From assembly GCA_900128395.1 (NCBI GenBank), contig LT649416.1, forward strand, positions 1-27,485: DNA of 27,485 nucleotides, given 5' to 3'. The position numbers and the translations under genes were made by a program. The stretch is from Stramenopiles sp. TOSAG23-2 (taxonomy: Eukaryota > Sar). Below the pieces are notes generated by a model. It was not told where the DNA came from. It was given only the letters and a program-made list of their open reading frames with translations, and did not search any database. Positions 1,194 through 27,401 of this stretch are shown in pieces. Positions within the stretch are counted from its first letter, which is position 1. Every line of letters starts with the position of its first letter.

Positions 1194-1675
1194 TTACTGT
1201 TAAACACATTTTAAAAGAGTCGAAAATATAAAAAATTATTTATAAAAAATCCCAATAATACTAAAAATAGAAATACTGAAATTTTTTAATAATTTTTTAT
1301 AAAATGTATATACCCGTGTTCCTAAAATGCCTTGTTTGTATTTTTATACGCGCGCGATGCATGTACGTATATTATATATACACTCTCCCACTGTGTATCA
1401 ATCGTTCTCTAGATGTACATGTGTAATATTTTAAAATACGCTTCCTGTCTTTTGCTTCTTGTTGTTTTTTGCATGCTTGTGGTGGTTGCCTATATGCTGG
1501 TTTTTTGTTGTTGCGCATAATGCATAATAACAATGATGGTTAATAATTGAAATAATACAAAGTATATATATTAATATGATATTAATAAAAATAGACAAAT
1601 AGAAAAATTATTAATAATAAATCATTTATATATATTTATGTAATATGAAACAAAAAACCAAATACAGAGTAAAAC
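1194..1675. other. Intergenic, 482 bp, no gene seen
   Basis: Very AT-rich spacer between two head-to-tail + strand genes. It holds T/A runs, a CG-containing patch around 1350-1370 (CGCGCGATGCATGTACG), a TGCATAATA word near 1518-1530 and AT-repeat tracts just before the next ATG. It must contain the 3' end of the EGF-like gene and the promoter of the 1676 gene. No clear TATA box or RNA gene could be assigned. Confidence 0.6.
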
Positions 1676-8807: not shown

Positions 8808-9676
8808 TTTCTTCTTTTTTATTTCAACAAATTTAGTTAAAGCGTAATGCAGTAATGTAGTAATTTGTATTTGTTATATGCGTTCGTTTGTCAACATATA
8901 TATAACGTCTCTCCTCTCGCGATATAGTCTTTCTTTAATTATCCTCTTTTTCTAGTTATTTATTCAAAATGTATAACCTAGATAACCGGGTGGTGGTGCA
9001 TAATAGCGATACATTAAAGTGCGTGATGATACATGGGTGCAAAAAAGTGCTCTTCCGTGTGAGGTTAAATTTTGGTGAGCGTTTAATTCTATTAATACTG
9101 TGTTCATGTTAAAAAGCACTATAAACGAAAACCCAAAACAAATTAAATTAAAAATTTCGAATTTTTCTAGAAGAATCTGTTTGGTGACACAACAACGTGC
9201 ATAAAAATTTGACTTTATTGTAAAATAACTTTTTGTATTAATACTATGTCTACTATATAATACTGACAAAAAGTACGATTGGTTTTGCAATAAATAATAT
9301 ATTTGAAATTTCCATAAAATTCAAATTGGCCCCTATTATGCACATATAATACATCTGTATTTATTGGTTATTATTGGGGTATAGTTCATAGTGCCATACC
9401 AGGCATACAAACATATATATATATATATATACTATAGACTATACAATTTTTGAATAAATCTAGTAGAATAAAAAGGGATAATTAGAAAAATAAGATTATA
9501 AGATATATACATATATATAAAACCGTATTATATAGTAGAATATATATATTTATATTTTTTGTTGTTGTTAAAATATCAATCATTTACTGACATTTAAAAA
9601 AAAAACGTATTACAGGTATATAATAAAAAATATCATTTTGAAAGAATAAATAAATATATAATTATTATATCTAAAC
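8808..9676. promoter_or_regulatory. Divergent promoter region, 869 bp, between two Cache genes
   Basis: This spacer separates the starts of two divergently transcribed Cache sensors, so it should hold both promoters. The middle (about 8960-9290) is less repetitive than the edges and contains TGCATAATA words at about 8996 and, on the other strand, at 9333-9343, plus TATGCACATATAATA (9337-9351), shared with one mismatch with 4955-4969. An (AT)n run lies at 9413-9431. A 108-codon minus-strand ORF (8964-9290) is present but looks like chance. No RNA gene was recognised. Confidence 0.5.
9413..9431. repeat. (AT)n microsatellite
   Basis: Nine and a half AT units in the divergent promoter region of the two Cache genes. 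Confidence 0.9.
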
Positions 9677-11532
9677 ATGGCAAACCGAAGAAAAAAAGAG
9701 AACAATCAATACAAACAAAAAAATTTGTGGGTGCATAAGTGTCAATTTACGAAATTACACTATCAAACAACAAATCAGTACCGGTCTTATATCAGTCTCG
9801 TTTATCATATTACTTTCCTTGTGCTTGGTCAGTATTATATCAATTGTTGATCTTGGAAACCAAACTTCAAAAGCGGCCATGGACAATTTAAGATTACAGA
9901 TCGAAACAAATGCTAGAAATTTCTCTACGTTAAATGCAGATGAAATCAGTGCCACTTTGCAACGCAGGGCAGCTGCAGCAAATTTGATTGCATATGCTAT
10001 GAGTGATTTTTACTTAGCCACGGAACTAACATTTGATAAGGATGCGATATCCTACTTTGATGAACAAGTGACAGCTGGTTCACCAGTCCCAGGGGTTACG
10101 TTTAATAAGAACGATAATAACTTTCCATTGTATAAAACAAAGGAAACATCGAGTTATTATATACCTAAAACAACTAATACTACAGCAGGCACACCAGCGC
10201 GAGCACGATTGAATGGTTGCTATTTACCAAAAGGAGATACGCTTCGACAATATGGAACTCCAATGGATGAGTCAGGTTGTAAAGAGTTAACAACGGTGTT
10301 AGCAAGTGACCCATTGTTGGTGAAACAAATTCAACGTAGCGTAAAAATCAATCGTTACTTTAAAGATTTTTCAAAAAAAATTCCTGATATCTATGCAATA
10401 TACTTTGGCTTCCGTTCATCTGGCCTATTTAGACAGTTCCCTGGGAGTAATGACAACTCAGACGGAAACACTCCACGTACGTATGATCCAAGAAAGCGAC
10501 CATGGTATTTAGATGCAATGAATGGAAAGAAATACGCATCAAGTACAACAGGGGCATGGTTTGGCCAAACGATTATTACAGCACCATATCAAGATTTTTG
10601 GAGTAAAGTATGGATGGTAACAGTTGCAAAAGCAGTTTACGATGACGTCAAAAATTTAGTAGGTGTATTAGGAATTGATGTTAGCATCAAAACCATACAA
10701 GATGAAATTCTTAAAGTACATTTCTTAGAATCAGGTTATGTTATATTGACTGAATCTGCATCGAGATCAGCAAGCAATATGAAAGAAAGACTTGTCGTTT
10801 CTGCGCCAAATTTTGAAAGTTACGTTACAAATGGAAATGTATATTTTAAAGATGTACTGCCATCCGTTGCAAGCAATTCCACGTTATTCAATAGTTTGTG
10901 GTCGGAAACAAATGTCAAATATTACTCAGAACGGGAAAATGATGAAGAAAAAAACTATTTACTTGCATATAGCAGTGCTGGCAGCACAATGTTTCGTGAA
11001 CGGTATACTGTTTTTATAGTTATTCCGGAAGGGGAAGCATTAGGCGTTTTGCCAACATTAGAAAAAACAATTCTTGAAACAATAGAGGAAGTTGTTGGAA
11101 TTGTCAGCGCAACTTCCATTACTACTGGTCTTGTCACTTTATTGATAATTATTACGGTAACAAATTCGATATCAAAGCCTGTACAAGCAATGGTTCAAAT
11201 AGCTCAATCCATTGTCAAAGGTGCAGCTGAACAGAATTTAGTGAAAGACTTTGAAAGACAAGAACGAGCAATGAAAGCAGTACGTGATTATGCCGGAGTG
11301 AAAGAAGGCTTTACAAATGCTGATGCAGGAAGGAGAAAAAATTAATAATGAGATGCAATTATTGGCAAGGAGTTTTTTGACGATGACTAGTGGTTTGAAA
11401 CGAGATGCCAATCGAGAGAAAGCACTTGTTAAGCATCCAATTAATCCATATCACATGGATCAAGAAAGTGAATTTATGGGTGATTTTATAGATCAAAATT
11501 TAGCAGTGGAAGTTGAAGCAAAACAAATGTAA
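9677..11532 (+). CDS. Cache-domain membrane sensor (TM-Cache-TM), two frame breaks
   Basis: A shorter relative of the neighbouring Cache/VWA protein. The central frame (about 9779-11345) codes for a signal anchor (SFIILLSLCLVSIISIV), a helical segment, a Cache ectodomain with YDPRKRPWYL, VGVLGIDVSI and SGYVIL, then a TM helix (about 11100-11160, ATSITTGLVTLLIIITV) and a HAMP-like SKPVQAMVQIAQSIVKG. I place the start at ATG 9677 (AAAC-ATG-GC), a basic N-terminus (MANRRKKENN) in a different frame. An ATG at 9819 exists but falls inside the signal anchor. The C-terminal tail continues in the next frame to TAA at 11532 (...NNEMQLLARSFLTM...VEAKQM). Both joins need a +1 shift: short introns (9727-9778 or 9739-9778; 11298-11328) or surplus bases in A-runs. 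There is no VWA domain, so it probably senses a ligand outside and signals through its cytoplasmic tail or a partner. Confidence 0.8.
9727..9778 (+). other. Candidate first intron (52 nt; 40 nt if 9739-9778) of the Cache gene
   Basis: A GT...AAATCAG segment whose removal links the ATG at 9677 and its basic N-terminus to the signal-anchor frame (...KQKNF-TGLISVSF...). A GT at 9739 gives a 40-nt version. An indel in either A7 run (9691-9697 or 9717-9723) would also give a basic N-terminus followed by the same TM helix, so the intron is not proven. Confidence 0.35.
11298..11328 (+). other. Candidate 31-nt intron in the Cache gene
   Basis: A GTGAAAG...GATGCAG segment of 31 nt lying between codons (phase 0). 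Removing it joins the HAMP-like helix to the C-terminal tail frame (...VRDYAG-EGEKINNEMQ...). One surplus A in the A6 run at 11335-11340 is the simple alternative. Confidence 0.3.
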
Positions 11533-11878: not shown

Positions 11879-13453
11879 TTATTTTTTATCCTCTTTTCTA
11901 TCTTCTTCTTCGGTATCAAAACAACGAAGATTTTCCCTCACTTTCCCCGCTGCTACCCATTCATTTATAAAATCGTTTTTAGCCTCCTTTGATATATGTG
12001 CATTGAATCGTATATCGACTGTGGTTACACTTGTACTATTTAATGCATATGCTTTTAAAGCATCGAAACCTTCCATACCAATCATATTACCACTCAATTC
12101 AATTTCTTCCAATGCCATTACATCTTCATTGTCTAACTTAACCAATTCGTTCACCAATGCTATTATACCATCTGAACTAATGTCATTTTCTCTCAAATCC
12201 AATCTCGTCAGATTTCTAAAGCAAGGAGACTTTTCATCATCTGCAAGTGCAGCTGCAAGACTTTTAACCCCACCATTGCCAATGTTATTACCTGCAATTG
12301 ATAAGTCATCGAGCCTGGCTGTGTACGACATGCCTTGCAATATGGCATCAAAACCTTCTTCATTCATATTAATAAACATCAAATTCAATATTCTTAACTT
12401 GTTGCATCGCTGAATGATTTTAAATAAGACTTTGCATCCCACCGGTCCAAGAGGATTTTTGCTTAAATTTAATATTTCAAGGTTCCTCCAGTCACAATTT
12501 GAATCTAAAATAGTCTCTAAACCATATGGATCAACGTGGTTGTCTGATAAATTCAACATATTTAAATTTAAAACGTTTTTCAATATGAATTTAATTGTAT
12601 CGCAATCTCTATTAATAATATTTTTCCCCGACAAATCCATGACATCATAATGACCACCTTCTAATTCTTTCTCATTCGGTTTGCCAATCAACTGCCTGAT
12701 TTTCCTCTGTTGTTTCTTAAGAAATGGGCGTTCCCATAAATATACTGAATATAAATGACAAAATACCATAAGCCATGATATAATCAACGTTGGATACCAG
12801 AATAAGCCTATGATATTGTTCAATCCTTGATCGACCTTTGCATTCCTAAAAAAATCTTCACACCCATCCTCTACTGCTTCTTCTGAACATGCATTGAACA
12901 TACCCCTTTTCCAAAAAAGATTGCTTTCATCGGCCATATGTTTCGGCATATGGCCCATAAAGACTGCAAAAATAACAATCCAAACTAAGTTGAAAGACAG
13001 GATAACGCCTTTATAAACTATATTTTCCCCACTTTGATTTAAATAAAACCCGCCAAATAAAAACACAAAGCCACTTTGGATTACAGAAATGATCATTGCA
13101 ACATCGTGGAAAATCATGATGGGAACATAAATGAAACCCATGAAGGCTAACAATGGTAAATGGATACATGTTAGCGTAGCGATTAGAATTAAAGTTGTTT
13201 CGATTTTCATCGCTTTGCGTCTCTGTTGGAAAAATGCAGTTGAAGTTAATCTCGCAAGAGTACTACTTAATCTCGCACGAATACCATCATCAATTTCATT
13301 ATCACCATTTGCTAACTCTGCTTCTAAGATTACCCTTTCGTAATTTGTTTCTATAACAAAAATTTCTAATACTGCTATTAGCACCCTTTGCCAACATTTC
13401 TGGCCATAGATAGAACTTTCTACTAACATATGCTCTAATTTCCAAAGCAACAT
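11879..13453 (-). CDS. C-terminal segment of the giant membrane protein: TM helices plus RI-type LRR domain
   Basis: A 524-codon frame that opens inside the 3' end of the preceding minus-strand segment (13302-21179), in a different frame. It starts with amphipathic and TM segments (WQRVLIAVLEIFVI; TLILIATLTCIHLPLLAFMGF; GFVFLFGGFYL; GVILSFNLVWIVIFAVFMG; LIISWLMVFCHLYSVYLW), then a basic linker. About six leucine-rich repeats of the ribonuclease-inhibitor type follow (LNMLNLSDNHVDPYGLETIL, LEILNLSKNPLGPVG, LTRLDLRENDISSDG, LEEIELSGNMIGMEG), and the tail is acidic and basic (EEEDRKEDKK). In 13302-13453 this frame has the more natural protein, whereas the rival frame becomes Arg-rich and stops. 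I therefore read it as the continuation of the giant gene, joined by a +1 shift near 13416-13470. A separate gene starting at ATG 13453 cannot be excluded. The LRR should face the cytoplasm and bind partners. Confidence 0.8.
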   Translation of the reverse strand: MLLWKLEHMLVESSIYGQKCWQRVLIAVLEIFVIETNYERVILEAELANGDNEIDDGIRARLSSTLARLTSTAFFQQRRKAMKIETTLILIATLTCIHLPLLAFMGFIYVPIMIFHDVAMIISVIQSGFVFLFGGFYLNQSGENIVYKGVILSFNLVWIVIFAVFMGHMPKHMADESNLFWKRGMFNACSEEAVEDGCEDFFRNAKVDQGLNNIIGLFWYPTLIISWLMVFCHLYSVYLWERPFLKKQQRKIRQLIGKPNEKELEGGHYDVMDLSGKNIINRDCDTIKFILKNVLNLNMLNLSDNHVDPYGLETILDSNCDWRNLEILNLSKNPLGPVGCKVLFKIIQRCNKLRILNLMFINMNEEGFDAILQGMSYTARLDDLSIAGNNIGNGGVKSLAAALADDEKSPCFRNLTRLDLRENDISSDGIIALVNELVKLDNEDVMALEEIELSGNMIGMEGFDALKAYALNSTSVTTVDIRFNAHISKEAKNDFINEWVAAGKVRENLRCFDTEEEDRKEDKK

Positions 13454-16400
13454 ACCTATAGAAAATTCTATTAATGCTAATTATCAATAAGTTTAGGCAA
13501 TATAATAAAACAAAAAGAGGGGGATTTAAAATATTTTGGATGAAAATATAGAAAAACCAAAACACGACTGGAAAAACAAGTCGAAAATACTTTGAATGTG
13601 GCTCCATGTCGTCGTCTAGTATCCTTCTATCATTTTCCATTTGTGCATTAGGGAAAAGTTCATTATCTCTTTTCTTAACACAACATTTACAACCAAAGAT
13701 GTGAACAAAAACACGCATTGGTTGGTAAAAAGGAAAGGTCAAGATGTGCATAATGGCGAATGGAAATGCAAGCGGTATGACCAACAATCTATTATACCAT
13801 TCAACCTTATTATCTCCAGTACATTTTATTACCTTCCATACCTCTGGTAAATACATGCCATTTACCCCCGACATTTCCAAGTAACCTAAAACACCAGAAA
13901 AAACTATAAAGACAAACATAAATGCCTCTATTGCAAGTATTACTAACCCGAAAGAAAACCCTGCAATACCAACAATAATTTGTACAACTATCATAAAAGA
14001 TTTCCCAAGACATGGCATTAATGTTTCAATAGCAAAGTGTCCCAATGCCAGCGGGAAATATTGGAAAAACAGAAAATGTTTAGTTGGAAATCCAACTTCA
14101 CCATATTCTTTGAGTCGCTTATCTTTATATTTTTTATTATATTTTTGACTTGTTGCTTCACGCAAAAGCACAGTTGATCCACACAGCACATATTGTATTG
14201 GCATTGTTGCCAACCAAACTACAGACACAATAAAATATGCAGGAATTAGTGAGCCAGCATGGACTATGCCGCCTTTAAAGCTGAGACCATCTTCGAAGCA
14301 AGGGCCATATGGAGTGATCGAAATCACAATCAATAAAGGAATACAGATGCACCCACAAATTATTGCAAAAATAATTGCAATGCCATATGCCATTCCTTTT
14401 AAAAATATTTTAATTACAACATCATAAGAAAACCATTTAAGTTGCCTCCAAAAAATAGAGAAGAAAAGTACATGTAAGTTCAATATAGAAGATGTGGATA
14501 CTTGCATAATGAGCACGGATGGATCTGGGCTCAGCGCAGTCTCCATATTCTTCTCTACACCCATATGTACATCATACGCCATTTTGACAATATGTGGCTC
14601 AATATCTTGATATTTCTCAATATAATTAGCGTATACATCCTTTTCGACTTCATCATCGCCATCTTTACCAATGGCATGTGGTACTACCTTTTCCTTGCTG
14701 CGCCCTTTATATTTACCACAGCAAATTGCTCTCCATGCTGCAACAACTATACCTTTCTCATCATTACTTTTTGCAAAACAAAAACAATAAAGGAACATCA
14801 ACGGGAAAATAGCTAAGTTTGTGAACGGGTATATATGGAGTAAAATGGCGTACATGAAAAGGGCAAGTATTGTTGGGATAAGATCCCGTTTTTTGTCTTT
14901 AACGTTTCCAACACTTTCTATGAAAGTCCCAATCAATAGAACATTGGAACAAATTACAATACTCATGGCCAATGATAAGGAGCCAGCAATTAATCCAAAA
15001 ACAAGCAATATTAATCCAACGCATAAATAATATAATAATGAACCAAACAATTGGCCGATATTTTTGCCACATTTACAGGTCGTATTTAGAATATCATTTA
15101 ATCGTTCTGCCAAATGTTTCCATACTATATTCCAAATTTTATTCTCGAACGTTATGTTTGGATCAAAAAAATCATTAAATAATTGAAATTTACAAACCAA
15201 AAGATTCAAAACAACCCCCAACAAGAAAAACGTAAAGAAATAAAATACAAATTGTATCGTTATTAATGTTGCATTGAACGCTATTTTAAACAAATTGGAA
15301 CGAATATTTAATTTATCAGACTTCTTTAATCTGTTTGATTGCAACACCACTTTTAGTGCCTCTACAGTTTTTGCCATGTCTTTTTCATTTGCTAAATATA
15401 CTTTTGACAACAGCGCCTCATCAAACATGTTTAGTTCTAACAAAGCAAGATAGGCTTTATTGGAAGATATGCTTTTGTCGTCTTCCTCTTTTTCTCCATC
15501 TTCAATTGTATCTGCTTTGTCAGTAGTATCTGATAGCTCTTCTTCTACGTCAATATTGTCAAGATTTAGCATGGTTTCTTTCTCGTGCTTAAATTTTGAC
15601 TTTACTTCCTTGAATTCTTTATATGCGCGCTTCGAGTTTTTAATCCACGTTCGCCATTGAATACAACCGAGTCTAATAATTAATGACATAATACACATTG
15701 ATACATAAAAGATGATTCTTACTGGAAGATAATATAGACTAAAAATCAAAAATTTCCCTGTAACATCGCGAATAAGGAATATCATTACAATTTTTGTTCC
15801 TTTCAAAAATTTTGATATAACCCAAATCGTACCAACGATAGTATGCACTATAATTTTACCAAGCATGGTAAAACAGTTGCTAGGAATCGCATAAAATTTC
15901 TGATAAAGACGTATCTCCTCAAGTCTGTTATCCAAACATTTTGCAATCTGTTTGTTTGTACGATTGCAAATAATTTTTTCCAGCCTCTTCAGAACGGCGT
16001 TTTGAGCTGTTTGCCTTAACCTGCTACGTCCAATCGAATTTGCATTAATAAAATCTGGTGTCTTTTTTAATTCTAGATACATCAGTGCCCCATACAATTT
16101 AAATATTGGTTCTTTTTTCTTCGTATTAAATTTATCACCATTATTTTCCATAAAGTCTATCAAAGCATTTTTATCATTGTTTCTAAGTTTTTTTCTTTTG
16201 TGGCACCAACCAAGATCAAACATTAATTTTTTGAATTGTATACAGGTAATACATATCATAATTGTCATAAACAATTGGAACGGAAAAACGATCAGGAAAA
16301 GAACACTTTCAAGGAACCATGGGATAAGAACCGCAAAGAATATTTTACTATATCTACCCGTGTCCGGATCTTTCATGTCCTTATAATACTCCAACAGATT

Positions 16401-19400
16401 TCCACTGACAAAAACGACTATTACCATTGGAAATTGTATAATCACACAAAGAAACGTTACAATCCCACTTATTACATACACAATAATCCAGCCCATGTTT
16501 AGCAATATATTTTCTGCAAACCATTTTGAAAAATATACTAAAAATTCCTTGATCCAAAAAGAGATATCACCAATATCTTCACTTCTACCATCTAAAGTTA
16601 GCATAAAATACTTGAATACACTTTCAAAAACTCGTTTATCCAATGGTATGGTTGCATCTGACAATTCATTAATCAGTAACCTGACATGCGTCAAATTGAA
16701 AAATATGAAGAGGGCCATTACCAATTGAAACGGTAAATATAGATAAAACAACACCGTAAGAACAAAATAACGAACTAAAACCTCATTGTTCCATGGCATG
16801 GTAATTTCTAGAAAACGCTCAAATAATGTATCTTTGTCCTCCTCCTCCTCGCCTTCTTCCACCTCTGGTTTAGCTCCTTCAATAAAAAGTTGCTTCCATG
16901 CTTTAGACCAAAACAGTCTACCACAACAAGTAGTAAATAACATAATTATGGTCAGTAACCATAATGGTGACAAAACCAGAAAGGCAATAAAAGAAAAGAC
17001 ACCTGCCAAGAAATTTAACGTGATGATGTAGAAAAGATTTCCATAAAATTCAAACCATGTCAACAACGCAACCCGTATCATGTCATCGAATGCTTTTCCT
17101 TCATCCTTTCCGGAAGCAAGGAAAATCTTTTGCACGCGTTCACGTGGCAGGATTTCCATTGCCAACAGTCTTTCCATAGCAGCACCATCTTTGGTTAGCT
17201 TCCGTAATATATTAGTTTGCGCAGCTAATTCATTTTCACTTGACTTGGCATTATCCCCTTTCCCTTCATTGTCGTTCTCCTCTATTTTCTTTTCCTCGTC
17301 AGTCTCCGTTCCATCTTCAATATCAATGGTTTCATGATCCGAATCTTTCGGTCCAAACACTGTGCGGCGTATTGTAGTACTAGTCACAAATAACAGTGAT
17401 GGTTTATTATTGTTTTCAAAAAAATGATCTTCTACACCATCTATGAATTCCATTAAATTGAAAATCGTACACGCAATGACAATTGCCATTGCGATTTCAA
17501 TTACAAATGATACAACTACGCATGTTAATGCCAAAATGAAACATAATATTCCAATTAGAGATATTACCATCGCAACAATTGTATCAAAAACGTACAGCTT
17601 GAAGCAAGCACCAGCATTTTTCAAGCCCTTAGGACCTTCTTTGGCAACAGCAGCTTTGTACTTAATCATGACATTATAAATATCTTTCATAATGCTTGCA
17701 AATTCACTCCCTATTACCCCAAAGCGTATTATCCATTTTTGATAAAGTGTTGTTCCCGGATCACAAAATAAGTTTTTACAAAGTCTTGGTATCCTATAGA
17801 AACTTAAAAAAATCACCACTAACATTAAAAGTTGACATGGGAGGACGAAAGCGAAAAATATAATAGTTAGAAACAAATACTCTACAGCAGAGAACATGTA
17901 CCTGTGACTATTACTTAAATTCTTTCTCTTCAATTTGTTAACTAATTCCATACGATAAGGCCCCAAACAAACGATTAGGCCGCTTATAACATTAAAAATA
18001 CACATACAAGATACAGGGATCCATGACAATATAACAAGTAAAAGCCTTGAAGTCGAATTAAGAAAATAAATTGGAACAATTGAATATAAACGTACATCTG
18101 TAAATCGTTCAAACCATCGATAGATATGTTCCGTATACTGTTTACGTATTTCAAAAGTCGATTGTTTCCGAATGATTTCCATGTCCATCGTCTCTTCTAT
18201 CTTCTCTTCGTCGGTGTTCGTTGGTTCTTTTTCCTTTTTTTCTTTATTTAATGTCTTCTTGTCTCGTTTTGGTTTCACAAATATTATTTTTTTGTTTCTC
18301 TTTTCAGTCCCATTTACCAGTTTGTAAATCGCCTTTGTCAGATCTTCAATATCATCTTCGACTTCCTGCTTATTTTCTTGGTTACTTATTAATATGCCTA
18401 AGCTTAAAAAGCGACCAATAAGATCAAATACTTGTGCTAAGAGAAACAATATAACTTCTAAGAAAAAATACGAACCAATATGAATAAAAACCACAACAAG
18501 CATAATACTACGTATTATTCTCCAAGTAAAAACATACATTGCAACAATGAAACACTGCGGTATGATAATATACATTTTTTCCATCCTACTTGATTCTTTG
18601 CTAAATAATTTTTCTAGGCATCGTTTAAATTCCACGTGTAGAGGCGAGGTAGCGATTAAAACGATTAAAAAAACAAATTCAACTGGCATCCAAAGCCATT
18701 GCAAGAAATATGTTTCGAGAAAATACTTTACAATGATAGACAATCTTGTAAATGGTAATGCTAGACTATATGGTTCGTAACCAGGTTTTTTGCCCTCCTC
18801 TACCAACTCATCGTAGCAATATTTCCATGTAATATGTTCATTCGGACCGAAAAAATAATACACGACCTCGCCGGGAGAAGGAATTAAAATTAAGATAAAC
18901 AATACCGCACCAACTACATGCAACACAATTTGTACGACGCACCATGCTACGATTGCAATGTCAAATATAACTGAAGCACAAAACATTTTGGGAATGAGAA
19001 CAAACCAAGCGTAAAAGTTAAGCGTTAGCCATTCGTTACACTTCCCTATAAACAGAGGCATTGTTAACATATTTACGTGCGTTTTTTTAATTTCACTTAA
19101 CGTTTTAGTACGATTGTATCCATTCTTGATATATACTTCAATGATCTCATCGTCCGTGATAGATTTCGTATAAGGCTTGAAATTAAGAACAAGTATATCT
19201 TTGCCTTCCTCCACCTTCTTTACGTCCGCTATTTTTGCATCCGTTAATTTCGAATCAACGGATATTGCCTTTGTTTTTTCATCTTCGTCGTTTGCTGTAG
19301 CATTGAACACATCCTTACTTTTCAATTCAATCCCTACAACTTGAGTCTCCGCATTTGTATTAGTAGTATTTTTGTCGTTGTTATCTCTTCCGAACCAAAA

Positions 19401-21179
19401 AGACTGTTCCTTGCTAACTTCAGAATATTCTTCTTTCCCTAAGATACACGTATACACTAGCATAATCATTTCAATTGGGATCCATACCAAAGAAAAACTT
19501 GCGAAGATTATTAACAATGGCAGGTAAAGCACAAATATTATGAAATCGATAAGACTAAATAAAAATCTAGAAATTACAGCAAACAGGCGTTCATTGAACG
19601 TGAAACGATTATACTTCATATCTAAAATAAATATTATATTTCCAAAATGCCATGGATTCAAGAAAGGTGTTACAAAGGCTAGCGGCACTGATACTAAGAT
19701 CACCAAATCTTGGGCTATATTTATAAATAACATTGCAGGGAATGTAAAAAATATAAATACCCAACCAACAATTGGCTCCATCCAATTTTTATTTCGGAGG
19801 GCGCCAAACGTTGAGTCCTCACGATACCAATTGTAATTAAAATAAATCGGATTAGTAACTGCCAATAATAATAAGCAAACGCCAATCACAATAAAATATG
19901 CAGCAATTGCTGGAAAGAAAATAAAAATGAGGAAGCGTCGAAGTGCAATTAAACCATGAGTCCAAACGAACTTAAACAATTTGTCTTCTCGATCCATATC
20001 CTTTGCATTCTTGTAATTCTTGACAAACTCAAAATAGTTATCCGTATCATAAATCGAGGTTATCAAAATAAGCGAAATGAAAAAAATATACGATGGAATC
20101 AAGAAGATATGAGCAAGCGCCTCACAAAAGTACGCGGTAGTTCCGAAGACGTATTTCCAAAACCAATCTCCTATTTTTTCCTCTGGTTTTATAATCAAAT
20201 GTGCTTTTTTATTCATTATCTCATTCCTCCAGGCATCATATTCCACAGGACTTAGCCAAATGACGATTACCATGCAACTTTGTAATAAAAATAAACACAA
20301 TAAAATTGGGGAAAATATGACCAGACTAAGTAGTTTTATCTGATGCATTAACTTTCCCTTTCCATCCCGTACAAAACAACACATTGATATGGCGTATATA
20401 ATAACCAAAACGATAAATACGATGAAGTAAACCCACCAAGGTATACATGGAAAATACCAAATGTCCATCTCACTTTTAAAATTTCCGCTGGATGGTACCG
20501 GTTGTGGGCATATACCTGCTAGTATTTTATTGGAGTTGCTTACATTTCCAGCTTTCAGCGACTGTGCGTAACATGAATGGACAGGCTCTTGACATCTAAA
20601 GTTTGTCCTTGTCGTAAATCGCGTTTCATCCTGTTCTGTTATAGGATTCTTGTATTTATAATGAATCAATGTAGCGTAGGAATTATCATCACTACATTTT
20701 CGCCCGTACAGGCACTCATTAAATGGGAAAATTTCGTTTGTGCATGTATCAATCTTCTCCATTCTTGCACATGGTGGATCAGCGCAGTGATAGCTGTTGT
20801 GGGGGGGATCTTCTTCATCGTCTATTTTGCAAGAATCTTCACTAGATTCATGCTTTGCTTTATCTTGTATGATTAAAATTGCGTTGGAGCCTGGGATACG
20901 TTTAGCTATTAGACCGTCACGTTTCTCATTTTTTACGATCATTTGCTCTGCGATTTGACTGGTCTCTAAGAATTCCATAGTGGACAAATCTTTGCAAAAA
21001 CTATTCCCCCAATTTAAAGATCTTGCAACACATTTTTCCAATTTACCAATAGTAGGGGAACCAGTATCTCCTAATAAAGCTTTGAATTTTTCTATCTCAG
21101 GGTGGTATATTAACGCACCACTTAAATCGACGACATAATATTGTGAAGAATCTGGTTTATAATGTTGCCCCCCCCCCAC
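13302..21179 (-). CDS. Central segment of the giant membrane protein: end of Cache, Cys-rich stalk, very large multi-pass region
   Basis: About 2,600 codons without interruption. The first residues (QYYVVDLSGALIYHPEIE) complete the second Cache module begun upstream, and match FLIDFSGRVLYHP of the first module. A Cys-rich ectodomain stalk (about 10 Cys) precedes a TM helix (WWVYFIVFIVLVIIYAISM), and then some 30 or more hydrophobic helices in bundles separated by charged loops. At least four loops carry a short helical motif of UBA-like look (around 19087-19165, 17079-17180, 15345-15450, 14535-14610), each followed by a TM bundle. A P-[FC]-QL-x-M pattern recurs in TM helices. Large charged loops (rich in Lys/Glu) predict cytoplasmic exposure. 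No known transporter, channel or enzyme motif was recognised, and no ATP-binding or pore signature was seen. The start codon given by the frame (GTG in the G-tract) is artificial: this is the continuation of the 21122-24874 segment. Confidence 0.85.
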   Translation of the reverse strand: MGGGQHYKPDSSQYYVVDLSGALIYHPEIEKFKALLGDTGSPTIGKLEKCVARSLNWGNSFCKDLSTMEFLETSQIAEQMIVKNEKRDGLIAKRIPGSNAILIIQDKAKHESSEDSCKIDDEEDPPHNSYHCADPPCARMEKIDTCTNEIFPFNECLYGRKCSDDNSYATLIHYKYKNPITEQDETRFTTRTNFRCQEPVHSCYAQSLKAGNVSNSNKILAGICPQPVPSSGNFKSEMDIWYFPCIPWWVYFIVFIVLVIIYAISMCCFVRDGKGKLMHQIKLLSLVIFSPILLCLFLLQSCMVIVIWLSPVEYDAWRNEIMNKKAHLIIKPEEKIGDWFWKYVFGTTAYFCEALAHIFLIPSYIFFISLILITSIYDTDNYFEFVKNYKNAKDMDREDKLFKFVWTHGLIALRRFLIFIFFPAIAAYFIVIGVCLLLLAVTNPIYFNYNWYREDSTFGALRNKNWMEPIVGWVFIFFTFPAMLFINIAQDLVILVSVPLAFVTPFLNPWHFGNIIFILDMKYNRFTFNERLFAVISRFLFSLIDFIIFVLYLPLLIIFASFSLVWIPIEMIMLVYTCILGKEEYSEVSKEQSFWFGRDNNDKNTTNTNAETQVVGIELKSKDVFNATANDEDEKTKAISVDSKLTDAKIADVKKVEEGKDILVLNFKPYTKSITDDEIIEVYIKNGYNRTKTLSEIKKTHVNMLTMPLFIGKCNEWLTLNFYAWFVLIPKMFCASVIFDIAIVAWCVVQIVLHVVGAVLFILILIPSPGEVVYYFFGPNEHITWKYCYDELVEEGKKPGYEPYSLALPFTRLSIIVKYFLETYFLQWLWMPVEFVFLIVLIATSPLHVEFKRCLEKLFSKESSRMEKMYIIIPQCFIVAMYVFTWRIIRSIMLVVVFIHIGSYFFLEVILFLLAQVFDLIGRFLSLGILISNQENKQEVEDDIEDLTKAIYKLVNGTEKRNKKIIFVKPKRDKKTLNKEKKEKEPTNTDEEKIEETMDMEIIRKQSTFEIRKQYTEHIYRWFERFTDVRLYSIVPIYFLNSTSRLLLVILSWIPVSCMCIFNVISGLIVCLGPYRMELVNKLKRKNLSNSHRYMFSAVEYLFLTIIFFAFVLPCQLLMLVVIFLSFYRIPRLCKNLFCDPGTTLYQKWIIRFGVIGSEFASIMKDIYNVMIKYKAAVAKEGPKGLKNAGACFKLYVFDTIVAMVISLIGILCFILALTCVVVSFVIEIAMAIVIACTIFNLMEFIDGVEDHFFENNNKPSLLFVTSTTIRRTVFGPKDSDHETIDIEDGTETDEEKKIEENDNEGKGDNAKSSENELAAQTNILRKLTKDGAAMERLLAMEILPRERVQKIFLASGKDEGKAFDDMIRVALLTWFEFYGNLFYIITLNFLAGVFSFIAFLVLSPLWLLTIIMLFTTCCGRLFWSKAWKQLFIEGAKPEVEEGEEEEDKDTLFERFLEITMPWNNEVLVRYFVLTVLFYLYLPFQLVMALFIFFNLTHVRLLINELSDATIPLDKRVFESVFKYFMLTLDGRSEDIGDISFWIKEFLVYFSKWFAENILLNMGWIIVYVISGIVTFLCVIIQFPMVIVVFVSGNLLEYYKDMKDPDTGRYSKIFFAVLIPWFLESVLFLIVFPFQLFMTIMICITCIQFKKLMFDLGWCHKRKKLRNNDKNALIDFMENNGDKFNTKKKEPIFKLYGALMYLELKKTPDFINANSIGRSRLRQTAQNAVLKRLEKIICNRTNKQIAKCLDNRLEEIRLYQKFYAIPSNCFTMLGKIIVHTIVGTIWVISKFLKGTKIVMIFLIRDVTGKFLIFSLYYLPVRIIFYVSMCIMSLIIRLGCIQWRTWIKNSKRAYKEFKEVKSKFKHEKETMLNLDNIDVEEELSDTTDKADTIEDGEKEEDDKSISSNKAYLALLELNMFDEALLSKVYLANEKDMAKTVEALKVVLQSNRLKKSDKLNIRSNLFKIAFNATLITIQFVFYFFTFFLLGVVLNLLVCKFQLFNDFFDPNITFENKIWNIVWKHLAERLNDILNTTCKCGKNIGQLFGSLLYYLCVGLILLVFGLIAGSLSLAMSIVICSNVLLIGTFIESVGNVKDKKRDLIPTILALFMYAILLHIYPFTNLAIFPLMFLYCFCFAKSNDEKGIVVAAWRAICCGKYKGRSKEKVVPHAIGKDGDDEVEKDVYANYIEKYQDIEPHIVKMAYDVHMGVEKNMETALSPDPSVLIMQVSTSSILNLHVLFFSIFWRQLKWFSYDVVIKIFLKGMAYGIAIIFAIICGCICIPLLIVISITPYGPCFEDGLSFKGGIVHAGSLIPAYFIVSVVWLATMPIQYVLCGSTVLLREATSQKYNKKYKDKRLKEYGEVGFPTKHFLFFQYFPLALGHFAIETLMPCLGKSFMIVVQIIVGIAGFSFGLVILAIEAFMFVFIVFSGVLGYLEMSGVNGMYLPEVWKVIKCTGDNKVEWYNRLLVIPLAFPFAIMHILTFPFYQPMRVFVHIFGCKCCVKKRDNELFPNAQMENDRRILDDDMEPHSKYFRLVFPVVFWFFYIFIQNILNPPLFVLLYCLNLLIISINRIFYRYVALEIRAYVSRKFYLWPEMLAKGANSSIRNFCYRNKLRKGNLRSRVSKW
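13416..13455 (-). other. Candidate 40-nt intron (or frame break) in the giant gene
   Basis: On the minus strand a GTATGT...TAGAAAG segment of 40 nt; GTATGT is a classic 5' splice-site sequence. Removing it joins the central frame (...SINRIFY) to the LRR frame (SSIYGQKCW...). One surplus T in the ATTTTC run just upstream (about 13465) would also restore the frame. Confidence 0.4.
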
Positions 21180-24100
21180 ACTGCTTTATCAAATATAGAT
21201 TTTAATGTTTCTACACTAAAATCTAAACCAGCGACTCCAGCAACAGTCTTATTTTCATCACTTAACACAGCAACCGATAAAGTCGAACACGGTTTTTTAC
21301 TAAAGGTATCTATGTAAGTCGACAAACATGTCCACGTGGGATATTCTACGCTACGCATGTACCATGGCCGTTTTCTAGGATCGTAAAAGCGTGATTCGGG
21401 TGCGCCAGTCAATTTTCGGAAAACACCATTCGTTGTTCCAAAATATTTAGCAATGACCGATGTCCCTAAACCTGGACGTTCTTTCCAACATTTTTCAACG
21501 GAGCGAGTTAAGAAAATATCTTCCAGTACACGAGGTCTTACCATTTTTTCAAAATCAAGACGTGCATCAAGCTCATCGCTATTAATTAAGTCATTATACC
21601 GAGTTACGCGATCTACGCTTTCCTTTATTGAATGTCCTCGGTCCAAATCCCCTTGTTGAATATATAGGTACGGATCACGATATGCACTGGATGCCAATTT
21701 CCAAACGCTTTCCTCAAACGTAACATTCGTCTGCGTATAATACCCTTCACAAGTAGGGAACCCAGAGTCAAAATATGTATTAGGCGTTGGTACAACGTCT
21801 ACACGATGGTACCAATCTTTGTAGTCCTTGCTTAATTTTGTCTGTGCATTGGTAACACTTCCAGGTTCAATGACACGAATTTTTGCATCTTGATCTTCCA
21901 ATACGAATGCCACGCTAAATTCAACCTTATCAACTTTCTTCCAATATATGTTTGCGCAAAATGTTAAATGCGTTGCTCCTTCCGCCGATGTCCCTCGTGG
22001 CATTAGCATTTGCATTTTTACGTATTTCGAACCGCTACCGCCAGCAGTCATGCTGTTACGAATTTCATTGATAAAAGTTTGATCCACGCCTTTTGAACTG
22101 TCCCAACTAGATGCAATCCCATCACATGATTGTAAAATCATCAAATCTTTGATATCCACAAATTTTGGATTTTTGCCATTTTTATCCTCAGGGGATGGCA
22201 GCGAGGGGTGATAAAGAACCCTGCCAGAAAAATCAATTAAGAACCCAAATGATTTTTTACCGTGATTTTTTGCATCTGCTAAATCTTTGAAAATATCAGC
22301 AACTGCTAAATCAATGCCTGCAACACCAAAATAACGTTCTTGATCTTGCAAAATAAACGTTTCGTTTTTGGACACATCTTTATTCATATACATTGGTACT
22401 GCCCCGGTTATGACTACGCCTAAGCCTGAAAAATCGAAATATGGTAATGTCAAACGTACTCCTCCTTGTTGTGATTCATACAAGTAATTCCCTGTCTCGT
22501 AGTAGGTGCCCATTTTGGACATCAAATCGCCAAAATTTTCATCCTTCACAAACACAGGTTTTATTACGGACATATCTGAAATTTCAGATTGATATTCTTC
22601 CACGCCTGCACCTAATAAGAAGTTAAAGAGATCAGGTGGAGTTGCCATTTCACCGCTTAATTTTTCAATTAAAGCTTCTACTTGTTCGAAATTTTCTGTA
22701 ACGCCTTCTTTCCCTGTTTTTGGCAATGTTGGAGCGCCATCTGTTAAAAATATAATAGCTGACTTACGAGAACTTAATGTTTTTCTTGAATTTAAATATT
22801 CAAATGCCGTAGTAAATGCAGCATGGTAATTTGTTTTGCCATTAGGTGCAATAGTCTCGATAAAATGGTTTAAAAACTCTTTGTTGTGATGATTTGCTGG
22901 TGCTAAATTTCTAGTGCCTTCTTCTATCGATCCTCTGTAATCGATTGTTTTGCGAGCACCGGCCGTGCAAACATAATCAAATGGATCACTTTCCAATTTG
23001 CTTTTCCATAATTTATTTTCTAGACTATTAGGATCTTCAAGGCAGCACAAATAGGCGTCTCCACGCCCGCGGCAATGGCGGGCATCTTCCAGTTTGAAAG
23101 CTTTGTAATCCTTATTATTATTGCAAGTAGTAGCACCACAACAGTCAGAATTATCACACAAATCAACCCTGCAGTTGCGGGGTCCAGTCGTTGGAAAATG
23201 CACTACATCACTAAACGATATAACTGCAACACGATCATCATCATTCAACGTTTTTAAAACTTGTTTGGCAGCTTTTTTTGCATATTTCATACGATCGTAC
23301 TCCAACATACTACCACTGCTGTCGATGATGATGACAATATCTTTTGGTTCACCAGCAGCTTTAACATACCATGGTCGTGTACGTGGATCATATGCAGGAA
23401 TATCCGTTAAAAAATACAACCAAACCCACATAAGTAATAGCGGCAAGGCAAATCCAACCAACCAATATGCAGTGCATTTTTTGCCCAGGCCTCTACCACC
23501 TGTTGTAGCTTCATCATCACCATCATCATTATTCTTATCTAAAACAACTTTATTTATCTGTGGAAAAATCACAAAAGTTGAGATGTAAAATAATGAAAAG
23601 ATAGAAAGGGCCCAAAATACAATTACGGCAATTAACCCCCCGGACATTTCTTGTCCAAAATTATTTGAACCATTCGCATCAATAAATTCGCCATCTTCTG
23701 TTATATCACGCCGAAACCCTACTAACAATGCCAATGTAAAAGGAACGTAATCAAGCCAAAACAATAAAAGAGCAATCCATGCCATAGCCCTTTTCTCATA
23801 TAATTGACCAGTTTCAATAGTTTCAGATTGAAAATGGACCAAATCTTCCTCAGCAAGCGTCTCATCATCGTTCTCATTTTCTTCTTCTCTTTCATGATCC
23901 CTATCACCACGCACTTTAAAAGTTTCTTTTTTCAGTTTAAATGTTTTTTGTTCATTGGTCATCGCTCGTAATTCTCGACTGGGCATTTTCATCAACCGTT
24001 TTCCATTTTCACTTTTTCCAATCAAAATTATGCCATAATAATCTTTGATGAAATAAATCCACCATATATGGAAAATTATTGTTGGCAACACAAGTAGCGT

Positions 24101-24874
24101 TAAAGCAAATATCAATACACGAAATGTCGGTGTAAAATTGCGGCCAGTAGATATGCCTAGTATTCTATCCCTTCGAGCGGGGTATCGCCTGTGATAGCCG
24201 GAAGTCGATGAAACATATTGCCATTTAATTGTTTTCGCAGTTTCAAAATTTTCTTTAAATACTTCATCCAGTTTCGCTTCTTTACACGCTGCTTCAAATC
24301 GAAGTAAATTTAAATGTGAACTAAATATATCATCGGTTTTCTGGGGGTAAATCTCTGTATACCATGGTAAATTTGCACATGAATGTTTCGGATCGACTGA
24401 GGAGTAAAATGCATCGTTGTACCGCGCCTCGTGATCGTTAAAGTCTTGACATAGATCAATTGTCCAAATGGCATCTCTTCCTTCTTTGGCATACATTTCG
24501 TTCGCTTTTTTATCTATAAAGTCAAAATTTGTATTATACTGGTCCTCTAATTTATTTTTCAAATTTGTTAACGGAGTAATTAACTTCTGTTCAATGGTAG
24601 TTGCAACATGCGCTGCCATATCTTCAAGTATACGCGTACCATTTACATTATTCGAAATGTATTTTGCATCGTTTGAATAAGTATTTTGCAAGACGTTGGT
24701 ACATAGTTGCTCACGTGATAATTTTTTTAAATCAGCAGATATTTTATCAGCAATCTCATTGATTTGTGTAAAACTAGAATAACTTGGAGCACAAGACACG
24801 ATTGTTGTTTTTATTATTATTATAGTTAAAATAATAACTAAATGTTTTAGACTACAATGGTGAACTGGCGACAT
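21122..24874 (-). CDS. N-terminal segment of the giant membrane protein: alpha2delta-like VWA/Cache ectodomain with four TM helices
   Basis: About 1,235 meaningful codons. A signal peptide (LVIILTIIIIKTTIVSCA, to about residue 29) is followed by a helical ectodomain (30-250) with Cys and an ANLPWY motif. Four TM helices follow (about 251-276, 365-390, 410-435 and 470-490) with an acidic loop between the first two. Then comes YDPRTRPWYVKAAGEPKD leading directly into VWA (from about 511), as in animal alpha2delta. MIDAS is complete: DSSGS, Thr in GKTNYHA, Asp in FLTDGAP. The VWA carries a Cys-rich insert (9 Cys). Two Cache modules follow: VRLTLPY...FGVAGIDLAV...FLIDFSGRVLYHP, and YDPRKRPWYM...VAGVAGLDFSV. 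The frame then fails in a G10 tract (21168-21177). The last 16 residues (NIINQILHN...) are a frameshift product, and the true continuation is 13302-21179. An even number of TMs keeps the VWA/Cache outside the cell. It is related to alpha2delta/CACHD1 by domains only. Confidence 0.88.
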   Translation of the reverse strand: MSPVHHCSLKHLVIILTIIIIKTTIVSCAPSYSSFTQINEIADKISADLKKLSREQLCTNVLQNTYSNDAKYISNNVNGTRILEDMAAHVATTIEQKLITPLTNLKNKLEDQYNTNFDFIDKKANEMYAKEGRDAIWTIDLCQDFNDHEARYNDAFYSSVDPKHSCANLPWYTEIYPQKTDDIFSSHLNLLRFEAACKEAKLDEVFKENFETAKTIKWQYVSSTSGYHRRYPARRDRILGISTGRNFTPTFRVLIFALTLLVLPTIIFHIWWIYFIKDYYGIILIGKSENGKRLMKMPSRELRAMTNEQKTFKLKKETFKVRGDRDHEREEENENDDETLAEEDLVHFQSETIETGQLYEKRAMAWIALLLFWLDYVPFTLALLVGFRRDITEDGEFIDANGSNNFGQEMSGGLIAVIVFWALSIFSLFYISTFVIFPQINKVVLDKNNDDGDDEATTGGRGLGKKCTAYWLVGFALPLLLMWVWLYFLTDIPAYDPRTRPWYVKAAGEPKDIVIIIDSSGSMLEYDRMKYAKKAAKQVLKTLNDDDRVAVISFSDVVHFPTTGPRNCRVDLCDNSDCCGATTCNNNKDYKAFKLEDARHCRGRGDAYLCCLEDPNSLENKLWKSKLESDPFDYVCTAGARKTIDYRGSIEEGTRNLAPANHHNKEFLNHFIETIAPNGKTNYHAAFTTAFEYLNSRKTLSSRKSAIIFLTDGAPTLPKTGKEGVTENFEQVEALIEKLSGEMATPPDLFNFLLGAGVEEYQSEISDMSVIKPVFVKDENFGDLMSKMGTYYETGNYLYESQQGGVRLTLPYFDFSGLGVVITGAVPMYMNKDVSKNETFILQDQERYFGVAGIDLAVADIFKDLADAKNHGKKSFGFLIDFSGRVLYHPSLPSPEDKNGKNPKFVDIKDLMILQSCDGIASSWDSSKGVDQTFINEIRNSMTAGGSGSKYVKMQMLMPRGTSAEGATHLTFCANIYWKKVDKVEFSVAFVLEDQDAKIRVIEPGSVTNAQTKLSKDYKDWYHRVDVVPTPNTYFDSGFPTCEGYYTQTNVTFEESVWKLASSAYRDPYLYIQQGDLDRGHSIKESVDRVTRYNDLINSDELDARLDFEKMVRPRVLEDIFLTRSVEKCWKERPGLGTSVIAKYFGTTNGVFRKLTGAPESRFYDPRKRPWYMRSVEYPTWTCLSTYIDTFSKKPCSTLSVAVLSDENKTVAGVAGLDFSVETLKSIFDKAVWGGGNIINQILHNIMSSI
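21168..21177 (-). repeat. G10 homopolymer where the giant gene loses frame
   Basis: Ten consecutive C on the + strand (G on the coding strand) in the middle of the second Cache module. The protein is continuous across it (DKAVWGGG then QHYKPDSSQYYVVDLSG) if the tract is 8 or 11 G, not 10. No other mononucleotide C/G run of this length occurs in the window. A length error, somatic variation or real slippage is possible. Confidence 0.9.
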
Positions 24875-25694
24875 TATTTGTTTATATTTGTTTGTTTCTT
24901 TCTAAAATCGTTAAAATCGTTTTTTATAGCTTTTCTATTTCTTACTTTAATTATATATATGTAAGCCGCTCTTTTGTGGGTGTGTGGGTGTTTACAGAAT
25001 GTGCATATATGGTGTACATACGTAGTAGTAAGTGGGAAAGGGGAAATGGGTTTTTTCTTTCCAAGGGGGTACTATACTAACAAGTATAAACACGAAATTT
25101 AAAAATCAAATTTTTTTTTGTTTATAATCTTGTTTGTGATAATCCAATGATATTACTATATACGTTAAAATTTAAATTTAAAAATACTTTCACTTATCCC
25201 CATTTAGTGCGTACGCGTCGTTTACCTATCAAAAAAATATTATAATCTGATATAATGCTATAATGCTATATTGCTGTATTAATATATTATAATATAACAC
25301 ACATCATCACCCACAACTGGCCAACCTAAAATAAAAACCCCCAAAAAAAACAACACCCTACTCTGGCAAGCGCAGAGTCTTCCCTAACAACACCCCAACA
25401 AGAAGATATTAGCACATTAATATTAATAATTATATGTATCGATATAGAATAGTATACATACAAAATATAAAACATATAACAAAAATAATATATATATATA
25501 CATATATATATACATACATTCAATACAAAATAAAACTAACAATCTCTCTTTTTCTCTCTTCCAACAACAACAACAACAACAAACTAAATAAAAAATAGAA
25601 TCAAACAAGCAACATTAGATCGAGCATTATTAATATACAAACGTATAGCAAAATTAGATACATACATACATACAGATACTTTTTCTATTGTGCA
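24875..25694. promoter_or_regulatory. Divergent promoter region, 820 bp, giant gene / xylulose kinase
   Basis: The spacer lies between divergent start codons. It holds T-rich sequence close to the giant gene start, a GT-rich patch (24975-25015), TATAATGC repeats near 25255-25275, C/A tracts (25335-25400), AT/AC repeats (25485-25517), a (CAA)7 run and a CATA repeat just before the xylulose kinase ATG. No gene or RNA was recognised; short ORFs here are low complexity. Confidence 0.5.
25562..25582. repeat. (CAA)7 microsatellite
   Basis: Seven CAA units about 110 bp upstream of the xylulose kinase start, possibly in its 5' UTR. Confidence 0.9.
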
Positions 25695-27401
25695 ATGTCT
25701 GATAATACTGAACAACAAGAAGAACCAATGTATGCTCTTGGAATTGATTCTTCCACGCAATCTTGTTCAGCTGTAATAATTGATTTAAAAAATAAAAATG
25801 TTATCATAGAAGAGTCTATTAATTTTGGACAATCGTTGCCGCAATATAATGCACCACAAGGTTTTATTGTTAATAATGATATTCCAAATGAGTTTCACTC
25901 AAATCCATTAATGTGGTTAGATGCGCTTGATTTATTAATGGAAAAGTTAAAAGCAGAATGTGATTTGTCTAAAGTGAAATTTATATCTGGTGCTGGTCAA
26001 CAGCATGGCTCTGTTTATTTAAATTCAACATGGTTTGATACTATAAAAAATTTAAATCATGAGCAAACGTTAAGTTTACAAATAAAACCATGTTTGTCTA
26101 GAGATTCGTCACCAATTTGGATGGATACGTCAACGTTAAGAGAATGCCAAGAAATTGCGAAGGAAGTTGGCAATAGTGAAAAAGTATGTGAATTATCTGG
26201 ATCGATACCAACAGAACGTTTTACAGGGCCACAAATTCGTAAATTTTACAAAGAAAGTGCTTCAAATTACGAAAATACGAGTAGAATACATTTAGTCTCT
26301 TCGTTTATTGGTAGTATAATTGCAGGTATAGATTCGCCGATAGACGTAGGGGATGGCGCAGGAATGAATTTAATGAATATAAAACAATTCGATTGGGATG
26401 AAACTTTATTAAATGCAACTGCACCAAATTTAAAGTTAAAATTACCTTCCATTTGCAATGAAAATTTAAATATAAGCTCTTCTGTTTCTAGCTATTTTAT
26501 CAATAAGTATGGATTTTCAAATGATTGCAATGTTGTTCTATTTACTGGCGATAACCCTTCGTCCTTAGTTGGTATGGGTGCTACTTCAACTGGTAAAGTT
26601 GTTATCAGTTTAGGTACAAGTGATACTTTTTTTGCTGCAATGAAAGATCCATGCACGGATCCAAATGGTAGTGGCCATGTATTTGGAAATGCTATAGAAT
26701 TGAATCCTACTACATCGTCCTCAAACGATGACATATCAAAGTATATGACCTTGCAATGCTTTCTAAATGGTTCATTAGCACGTGAAAAAGTAAAAGATCG
26801 TTTTCAAATGTCATGGGATGATTTTTCCAATGCATTATCTTCAACAAATATTGGAAATAATAAAAATATAATGTTGCCATTTTTTGGAAATGAGATAAGT
26901 CCAAAAATAATCGGGGATAACATTGAACCCATACTTTCTGGTACGGAAGATTTTAAAAATTGGAAAAATGCCAATGAAGCAATACGTGCATGTGTGGAAT
27001 GTCAAATTATTAATATGAAATGTTGTGTGAAATGGATGAATTTGTCACCAACACATATCTTTTTAACTGGTGGTGCAAGTGAAAATAATAATATTGCACA
27101 GATTGTAGCAAATATATTTCAGGCACGTGTATCTAGATTACAATCAAGTAGTTCATGTGGATTGGGTGGTGCTATTAGAGCAGCTTCATGTAGCAGTAGT
27201 AATAATGATGGCAACAAATTATATGAAATGATTGAATTGCAAAATATTTATTGTAAGTTTGATCCAAATAAAGATGTATTACCATCATCATCAAATGGTG
27301 ATAGTGACAATAATGTGAAGGCTACTTACGATGATTTGTGTAATTCATATGTAGAGTTATTATTATCAACACAAAAAGAGGGAGGTTGGAGTAAAGTGTA
27401 A
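25695..27401 (+). CDS. XYLB: D-xylulose kinase (FGGY family)
   Basis: Phosphorylates D-xylulose with ATP to xylulose 5-phosphate, feeding the pentose phosphate pathway; cytosolic. The 568-residue length suits eukaryotic xylulose kinases. Motifs in order: ALGIDSSTQS (N-terminal phosphate loop, about residue 15), GAGQQHGSVY (about 99), SPIWMDTST, ERFTGPQIRKF, LVSSFIGSIIAG with DGAGMNLM (sugar site region), FTGDNPSSLVG near 283-292 whose Asp is the expected catalytic base, SLGTSDTFFA (about 304), FLNGSLARE, TGGASEN (about 458) and GLGGAIRA (about 489) of the ATP side. The pattern resembles animal-type XYLB more than bacterial XylB. It is intronless, with start context GTGCA-ATG-TC. The C-terminal region has a Ser/Asn-rich insert. 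It is divergent from the giant sensor gene; no functional link is evident. Identification is firm. Confidence 0.95.
   Translation: MSDNTEQQEEPMYALGIDSSTQSCSAVIIDLKNKNVIIEESINFGQSLPQYNAPQGFIVNNDIPNEFHSNPLMWLDALDLLMEKLKAECDLSKVKFISGAGQQHGSVYLNSTWFDTIKNLNHEQTLSLQIKPCLSRDSSPIWMDTSTLRECQEIAKEVGNSEKVCELSGSIPTERFTGPQIRKFYKESASNYENTSRIHLVSSFIGSIIAGIDSPIDVGDGAGMNLMNIKQFDWDETLLNATAPNLKLKLPSICNENLNISSSVSSYFINKYGFSNDCNVVLFTGDNPSSLVGMGATSTGKVVISLGTSDTFFAAMKDPCTDPNGSGHVFGNAIELNPTTSSSNDDISKYMTLQCFLNGSLAREKVKDRFQMSWDDFSNALSSTNIGNNKNIMLPFFGNEISPKIIGDNIEPILSGTEDFKNWKNANEAIRACVECQIINMKCCVKWMNLSPTHIFLTGGASENNNIAQIVANIFQARVSRLQSSSSCGLGGAIRAASCSSSNNDGNKLYEMIELQNIYCKFDPNKDVLPSSSNGDSDNNVKATYDDLCNSYVELLLSTQKEGGWSKV

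Follow-up and report, generated by a model that had tools for sequence, protein, structure and literature searches.

A single giant gene, broken twice in the assembled sequence, occupies almost half of the stretch of DNA analysed here (27,485 nucleotides of contig LT649416.1, assembly GCA_900128395.1, from Stramenopiles sp. TOSAG23-2; hereafter the window). Its product combines a head of extracellular type, of the kind found in alpha2delta and CACHD1 proteins, a block of four transmembrane (TM) segments inside the first Cache module of that head, a large membrane region to which no relatives are known and a tail of leucine-rich repeats (LRRs). This anatomical description is the safest statement to be made about the protein. 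An initial annotation had proposed that such a head is fused to an extensive polytopic region with an LRR tail, and two database proteins taken from other records, P0001 and P0002, support this.

One gene in three open frames

The gene is read from three open frames of the minus strand: frame 1 (21122-24901), frame 2 (13302-21185) and frame 3 (11879-13480).

11879..24874, minus strand: whole gene, about 4,326 residues over three frames, with the first ATG at 24874 and the stop at 11879-11881
21168..21177, minus strand: junction 1, a ten-G run where the frame breaks; P0001 is a near-identical intact copy
13302..13480, minus strand: junction 2, 179 bases over which frames 2 and 3 are both open, with the frame change inside; P0002 is one frame there

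By alignment with these two homologues, the three frames are a single gene broken twice. P0001, a single frame of 2,680 residues on an 11 kb contig (21 sequences in its cluster), was the only match among 3,017 candidates. It is identical to the window protein at 1,223 of 1,237 residues of frame 1 and then at 1,416 of 1,440 residues of frame 2 (98-99%), and runs unbroken across junction 1. It stops at frame 2 residue 1436, followed by eight non-matching residues, and is therefore uninformative on the remainder of the gene. P0002, a single frame of 4,018 residues (eight sequences in its cluster), aligns with frame 1 over residues 87-1220 at 39% identity, with frame 2 at 24-29% over four significant blocks that lie in the same order between 1238 and 3503, and with frame 3 over 3634-4015 at 26% (E 2e-33). 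In a global alignment, the identity of aligned residues is 43% for frame 1, 27.5% for frame 2 and 27% for frame 3. Where frame 2 falls between two blocks, no local match to P0002 reaches significance, and the 130 residues of P0002 opposite junction 2 (3504-3633) lie outside any significant block, so that the join at junction 2 rests on order and continuity.

The protein searches return proteins of 0.55-1.75 times the query length, and the one that found P0002 scored only the 7,975 candidates with most words in common, among which P0002 and P0001 were the matches. Given this length range and candidate limit, further members of the family may exist. No relatives were confirmed in viral contigs or prokaryote genomes, in scans sensitive to close relatives only.

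The two breaks are probably assembly errors. Two other genes of the window also show apparent frame breaks beside homopolymers, an EGF-repeat gene (2-580/543-1193) and a dCache gene (9675-11345), in both cases by eye at runs of A, and this points to indel errors in the assembly. The base composition of the window is 27-40% guanine plus cytosine per kilobase. The unbroken frame of P0001 makes an intron superfluous at junction 1; at junction 2 no convincing GT...AG pair was seen by eye, and a short intron is possible there. Programmed frameshifting is disfavoured, because P0001 crosses junction 1 unshifted and two other genes of the window apparently break beside homopolymers. That the junctions are the true ends of three adjacent genes, for which the stops in all three frames of the assembled sequence and the end of P0001 within frame 2 might be taken to speak, is scarcely credible against the reading of P0001 through junction 1, the single frame of P0002 that matches all three pieces in order, a frame 2 that would begin in the middle of a Cache fold, and the homopolymer-side breaks apparent by eye in two further genes.

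The initial annotation had read the three minus-strand segments as one protein of about 4,300 residues with a Cache fold split at the first junction. P0001 (at junction 1) and P0002 (for all pieces) bear out the single protein, its size is close to that expected, and junction 1 falls within the second Cache module. Homologues that are always three separate genes were not found: of the two homologues seen, one is full length, and it is one frame.

The alpha2delta/CACHD1-type head

From the N-terminus onwards the protein can be divided as follows (MIDAS, metal-ion-dependent adhesion site).

24794..24874, minus strand: putative signal peptide (MSPVHH...IVSCA), an N-terminal hydrophobic segment also in P0002; boundary by eye
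24176..24547, minus strand: VWA_N (PF08399), which opens the alpha2delta-type head and ends ...KTIKWQYVSSTSGYHRRYPA; 45.1 bits against a Pfam cut-off of 34.7, E 1.9e-11
23402..24172, minus strand: four-TM insert of 257 residues (244-500) inside Cache1; its TM1-TM2 loop is acidic
23366..23392, minus strand: first half of the Cache1 amino-acid motif, YDPRTRPWY, aligned to YDVRRRPWY of alpha2delta-1
22532..23341, minus strand: VWA with MIDAS residues DSSGS, GKTN and LTDG; VWA_2 E 8.6e-15; end by eye
21830..22504, minus strand: second part of Cache1; LPYFD and VAGID contain residues of the ligand motif; boundaries by eye
20843..21826, minus strand: Cache2 (dCache), with YDPRKRPWY (21359-21385), STYID and VAGLD, and with junction 1 inside; PctA alignment E 6.5e-9; boundaries by eye
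20451..20842, minus strand: Cys-rich stalk, aligned in P0002; boundaries by eye
12758..20444, minus strand: polytopic region, 33 hydrophobic segments in common with P0002
11981..12658, minus strand: C-terminal LRR tail of ribonuclease-inhibitor type; LRR_6 48.2 bits against a cut-off of 23.4, E 6e-13; boundaries by eye

On the strength of its profile matches and alignments, the head is homologous to alpha2delta/CACHD1. It has their domain order of VWA_N, VWA and two dCache modules, although the dCache_1 match of frame 1 (E 2.5e-10, 40.8 bits) is slightly under the Pfam cut-off of 45. Among named proteins, frame 1 comes closest to the CACHD1-like proteins from Lineus longissimus (E 1e-40, with 26% identity across 46% of frame 1) and Saccoglossus kowalevskii (1e-32), which were the two matches among 7,326 candidates. 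The best matches of frame 1 to sequences in the PDB are alpha2delta-1 (E 1e-22) and CACHD1 (5e-18), and that of P0002 is CACHD1 (8s7c, 5e-18). The MIDAS is complete (DxSxS...T...D), with identical residues in P0002, and the alignment with alpha2delta-1 sets the VWA into Cache1, where it splits the ligand motif; the same arrangement is described for alpha2delta-1 in a passage of PMC9901441. Between the start of frame 2, in the second half of Cache2, and the first following TM segment, 11 Cys residues fall in 243. A VWA_N profile search of the organism's own genome (17.45 Mb in 793 contigs) gave one match, the giant gene.

The insert is placed by the same alignment. The match to alpha2delta-1 ends at YPA (residue 243), which is also the end of VWA_N, and restarts at IPAYDPRTRPWY (501), and the gap, which precedes AYDPRTRPWY, corresponds to a stretch with four hydrophobic segments. 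Thus the insert sits inside the split Cache1, next to the VWA. P0002 has it, with identity at 79 of 246 aligned residues, whereas both CACHD1-like animal proteins, and alpha2delta-1 as aligned here, lack a counterpart. A derivation of the insert as a copy of a module of the membrane region is unsupported (best score 24.5).

Both Cache modules carry the amino-acid-binding motif of dCache_1 domains that is described in parts of PMC9901441 and PMC10104139. The spacing in the sequences aligned here is Y-x4-R-x-W-Y, where PMC9901441 prints YxxxRxWY. The full motif (Y-x4-R-x-W-Y ... Y ... D) is found in both Cache modules of the window protein, P0001 and P0002, and the strict first half is found twice in the animal relative P0003 and once in P0004. 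Cache2 aligns with that of PctA, a dCache_1AA receptor of Pseudomonas, over YDPRxRPWY, the following Y and the final D. The two Cache pockets are therefore candidates for the binding of amino acids or related amines. Unlike PctA, however, which belongs to the bacterial methyl-accepting chemotaxis proteins, the giant protein has no match to a chemotaxis signalling domain. In alpha2delta-1, by contrast, the motif is described in the first dCache (a passage of PMC9901441), and that protein has neither a counterpart of the insert nor a polytopic region, being anchored by glycosylphosphatidylinositol (GPI) after processing according to the same passages.

The motif recurs in the window's two other dCache genes. 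One (5334-8873, minus strand) encodes 1,179 residues, with YDPRHRPWY in its dCache and a C-terminal VWA with a MIDAS-like DYSGS; helical repeats between the two domains were suspected by eye. The second (9675-11530, plus strand) has YDPRKRPWY; by eye its frame breaks near a run of A at about 11336 and continues to about 11530. At least two dCache_1 matches are listed for the genome, both in the window beside the giant gene, whose own Cache was missed.

The membrane region, the LRR tail and the genome context

Hydropathy averaged over the window protein and P0002 gives 38 shared segments: one at the N-terminus, four within the insert and 33 that follow the stalk. Taken singly, the sequences give 41 segments after the head for the window protein and 33 for P0002, so that the number is approximate. 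In place of the single C-terminal anchor of the alpha2delta/CACHD1 kind there are thus four plus 33 shared hydrophobic segments. Cachd1 is a transmembrane protein in the description of PMC9901441, as far as it is quoted here, and relative to CACHD1 the giant protein adds the four-TM insert, about 33 further segments and the LRR tail.

No family of Pfam or NCBIfam is matched by frame 2, and no PDB sequence is matched with an E-value better than 1.2. Ion_trans, transporter families and the class C G-protein-coupled receptor (GPCR) 7TM family are all without a Pfam match in frame 2, as is Piezo, at high divergence, and the giant gene is absent from the 39 Ion_trans matches (E 0.001 or better) of its own genome. 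A structure prediction of the region gave a predicted local distance difference test (pLDDT) score of 33, at which the fold is not predictable. By eye the loops of frame 2 seemed to hold UBA-like motifs, but this was not supported: seven loop pieces gave no UBA match at E 10, and their other matches were HBS1_N (E 0.012, below the cut-off), PBP2 (0.22) and EF-hand families. Residues 3154-3196 of P0002 contain a weak EF-hand-like loop stretch (17.8 bits against a cut-off of 25), and no EF-hand was matched by Pfam in the frames of the window.

There is a hint, in P0002 only, of internal duplication of the membrane region: some 150 residues recur at an offset of 360 (hhalign 60.1 versus 48.3 for the reversed control). 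The window sequence alone shows no repeat above its control (32.4 versus 37.1). A two-row profile of both sequences scores 164.8 and 145.8 versus at most 45.1 reversed (91.7 versus 38.3 with the window sequence as master), in a test that can be inflated by misaligned copies.

The tail matches ribonuclease inhibitor (3.4e-10), RanGAP1 (4e-7) and NLR chains in the PDB and is also present in P0002. Known ribonuclease-inhibitor-type LRR proteins thus provide its relatives, whereas here the LRRs end a polytopic membrane protein. If the head lies outside, an odd number of segments would place the tail in the cytoplasm. The window protein and P0002 therefore have in common VWA_N, the four-TM insert, VWA with MIDAS, two dCache modules, the Cys-rich stalk, 33 segments and the LRR tail. 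Since the insert, the 33 later segments and the tail are shared at about 27% identity (frames 2 and 3), this design persists over a large distance. Most of the parts named by the initial annotation stand as described: the VWA with MIDAS and two Cache modules of alpha2delta/CACHD1 kind are confirmed by Pfam, the CACHD1-like proteins and the PDB matches, the 30 or more TM helices by the 33 shared segments (a count that depends on method), and the ribonuclease-inhibitor LRRs at the C-terminus by the LRR_6 score and the PDB match. It had also listed a signal peptide, an ectodomain and four TM segments in series; the N-terminal hydrophobic segment and the four TM segments are there, but the latter lie inside Cache1 and are not a separate module following an ectodomain.

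Three frames elsewhere in the genome have four Ion_trans matches each, which makes a channel partner for the head possible.

C621:4668-8708, minus strand: frame of 1,636 residues with four Ion_trans matches
C123:18986-22858, plus strand: frame of 1,721 residues with four Ion_trans matches
C31:14027-17578, plus strand: frame of 1,257 residues with four Ion_trans matches

Two further Ion_trans matches, on contig C19 (26470-27393 and 43121-44044), have equal score and length and lie 16.7 kb apart, perhaps through recent duplication or an assembly repeat.

The remaining genes of the window are of varied kinds. An EGF-repeat protein (2-1193, plus strand), which has a hydrophobic segment close to its end, is cut by the window edge, with its frame broken by eye at about 560-575. 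It is followed by a gene for 365 residues (1673-2770, plus strand) with no Pfam match, in which a P-loop-like GLNGIRKTT was seen by eye where NCBIfam gives a weak FtsY match. A CAAX prenyl protease (Peptidase_M48; 3382-4755, minus strand) and an FGGY carbohydrate kinase (25599-27401, plus strand) are housekeeping-type flanks. Together with the size of the genome, gene content such as the CAAX prenyl protease, the EGF repeats and the four-domain channels points to a microbial eukaryote.

Possible roles of the protein

The most likely way of working is that of a receptor for amino acids or amines with its own membrane transducer, not paired with a separate channel, a reading that we hold with about as much confidence as doubt. 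Free amino acids or related amines would bind the two Cache pockets, and a divalent metal or a protein partner might also bind at the MIDAS. Binding would shift the head against its two sets of anchors, this movement would travel through the membrane region to the LRR tail, and the tail would recruit cytoplasmic partners. The protein would in this way sense nutrients or other chemicals. The presence of the amino-acid-binding motif in both Cache modules makes a 'self-contained sensor-transducer', the term of the initial annotation, plausible. Several points weigh against the receptor. Its function is read from sequence, and ligand binding from a motif that does not specify the ligand. The fold of the membrane region is unpredicted at a pLDDT of 33, and Pfam, NCBIfam and the PDB yielded no functionally characterised relative; the segment count is 33 or 41 according to method, and the topology of the LRRs is deduced. 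The genome's four-domain cation channels could be served by the head instead. Regulation may also differ between family members, because the EF-hand-like stretch of P0002 has no matched equivalent in the frames of the window.

A stronger form of this proposal would be a new receptor family in which an alpha2delta/CACHD1 head, otherwise known to accompany channels and to partner Frizzled, is built into its own effector of about 33 TM segments, and in which two amino-acid pockets, a metal-dependent VWA and a four-TM staple within Cache1 gate or steer the membrane domain and its LRR tail. It is put forward tentatively, as something that could well prove wrong.

The head could alternatively serve as a channel accessory as in animals, binding a four-domain cation channel through MIDAS and Cache1, with the polytopic region mainly an anchor or trafficking module. 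The MIDAS is complete, the MIDAS of animal alpha2delta contacts the channel (in a passage of PMC9901441), and the genome, where the giant gene is the one VWA_N match found, provides three frames that each have four Ion_trans matches. However, some 33 shared membrane segments are not obviously needed by an anchor, and the alpha2delta of animals manages with a GPI anchor (PMC9901441, in the same part). Such a role seems unlikely. We consider it similarly improbable that the head gates a channel, transporter or mechanical transducer formed by the membrane region, with receptor and effector in one chain. The size of the region and the number of shared segments are in keeping with this, and the recurring stretch of about 150 residues in P0002 hints at internal duplication, but frame 2 resembles no Pfam family or PDB sequence within the limits given above and the window sequence alone has no repeat above its reversed control.

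A cell-adhesion or mating protein, with a MIDAS-dependent adhesion head, an LRR scaffold and Cache pockets of structural use, would also make use of the complete MIDAS. Complexes of animal CACHD1 with FZD5 and LRP6 have been solved, by the titles of PDB entries, and Wnt receptors are named in the title of PMC7615972. A purely structural role would not obviously call for the two divergent members to retain the full ligand motif in each Cache module, however, and we regard adhesion as very improbable.

Metazoan Cache has been described as mostly limited to alpha2delta (PMC4822843, in part) or as present only in alpha2delta and Cachd1 (PMC9901441, in part), to which the receptors mGlyR and GPR179 have been added in the portion of PMC12716839 drawn on here. 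These also place a Cache module on a multi-pass membrane receptor, but with seven segments as against about 33, and the giant protein has no class C 7TM match. The same portion of PMC12716839 reports Cache in no non-metazoan GPCR. Among the matches listed for open-licence full texts (titles and starts of abstracts), no account of the present architecture was found.

Gabapentinoid drugs target alpha2delta. With the same head linked covalently to a large membrane region, the giant protein would offer a separate route to the role of the alpha2delta amino-acid pocket. The membrane region would define a new family of membrane proteins, with members in at least two divergent genomes. If the tentative proposal of a new receptor family is true, it would show how a bacterial-type nutrient sensor has been coupled to eukaryotic membranes outside animals.

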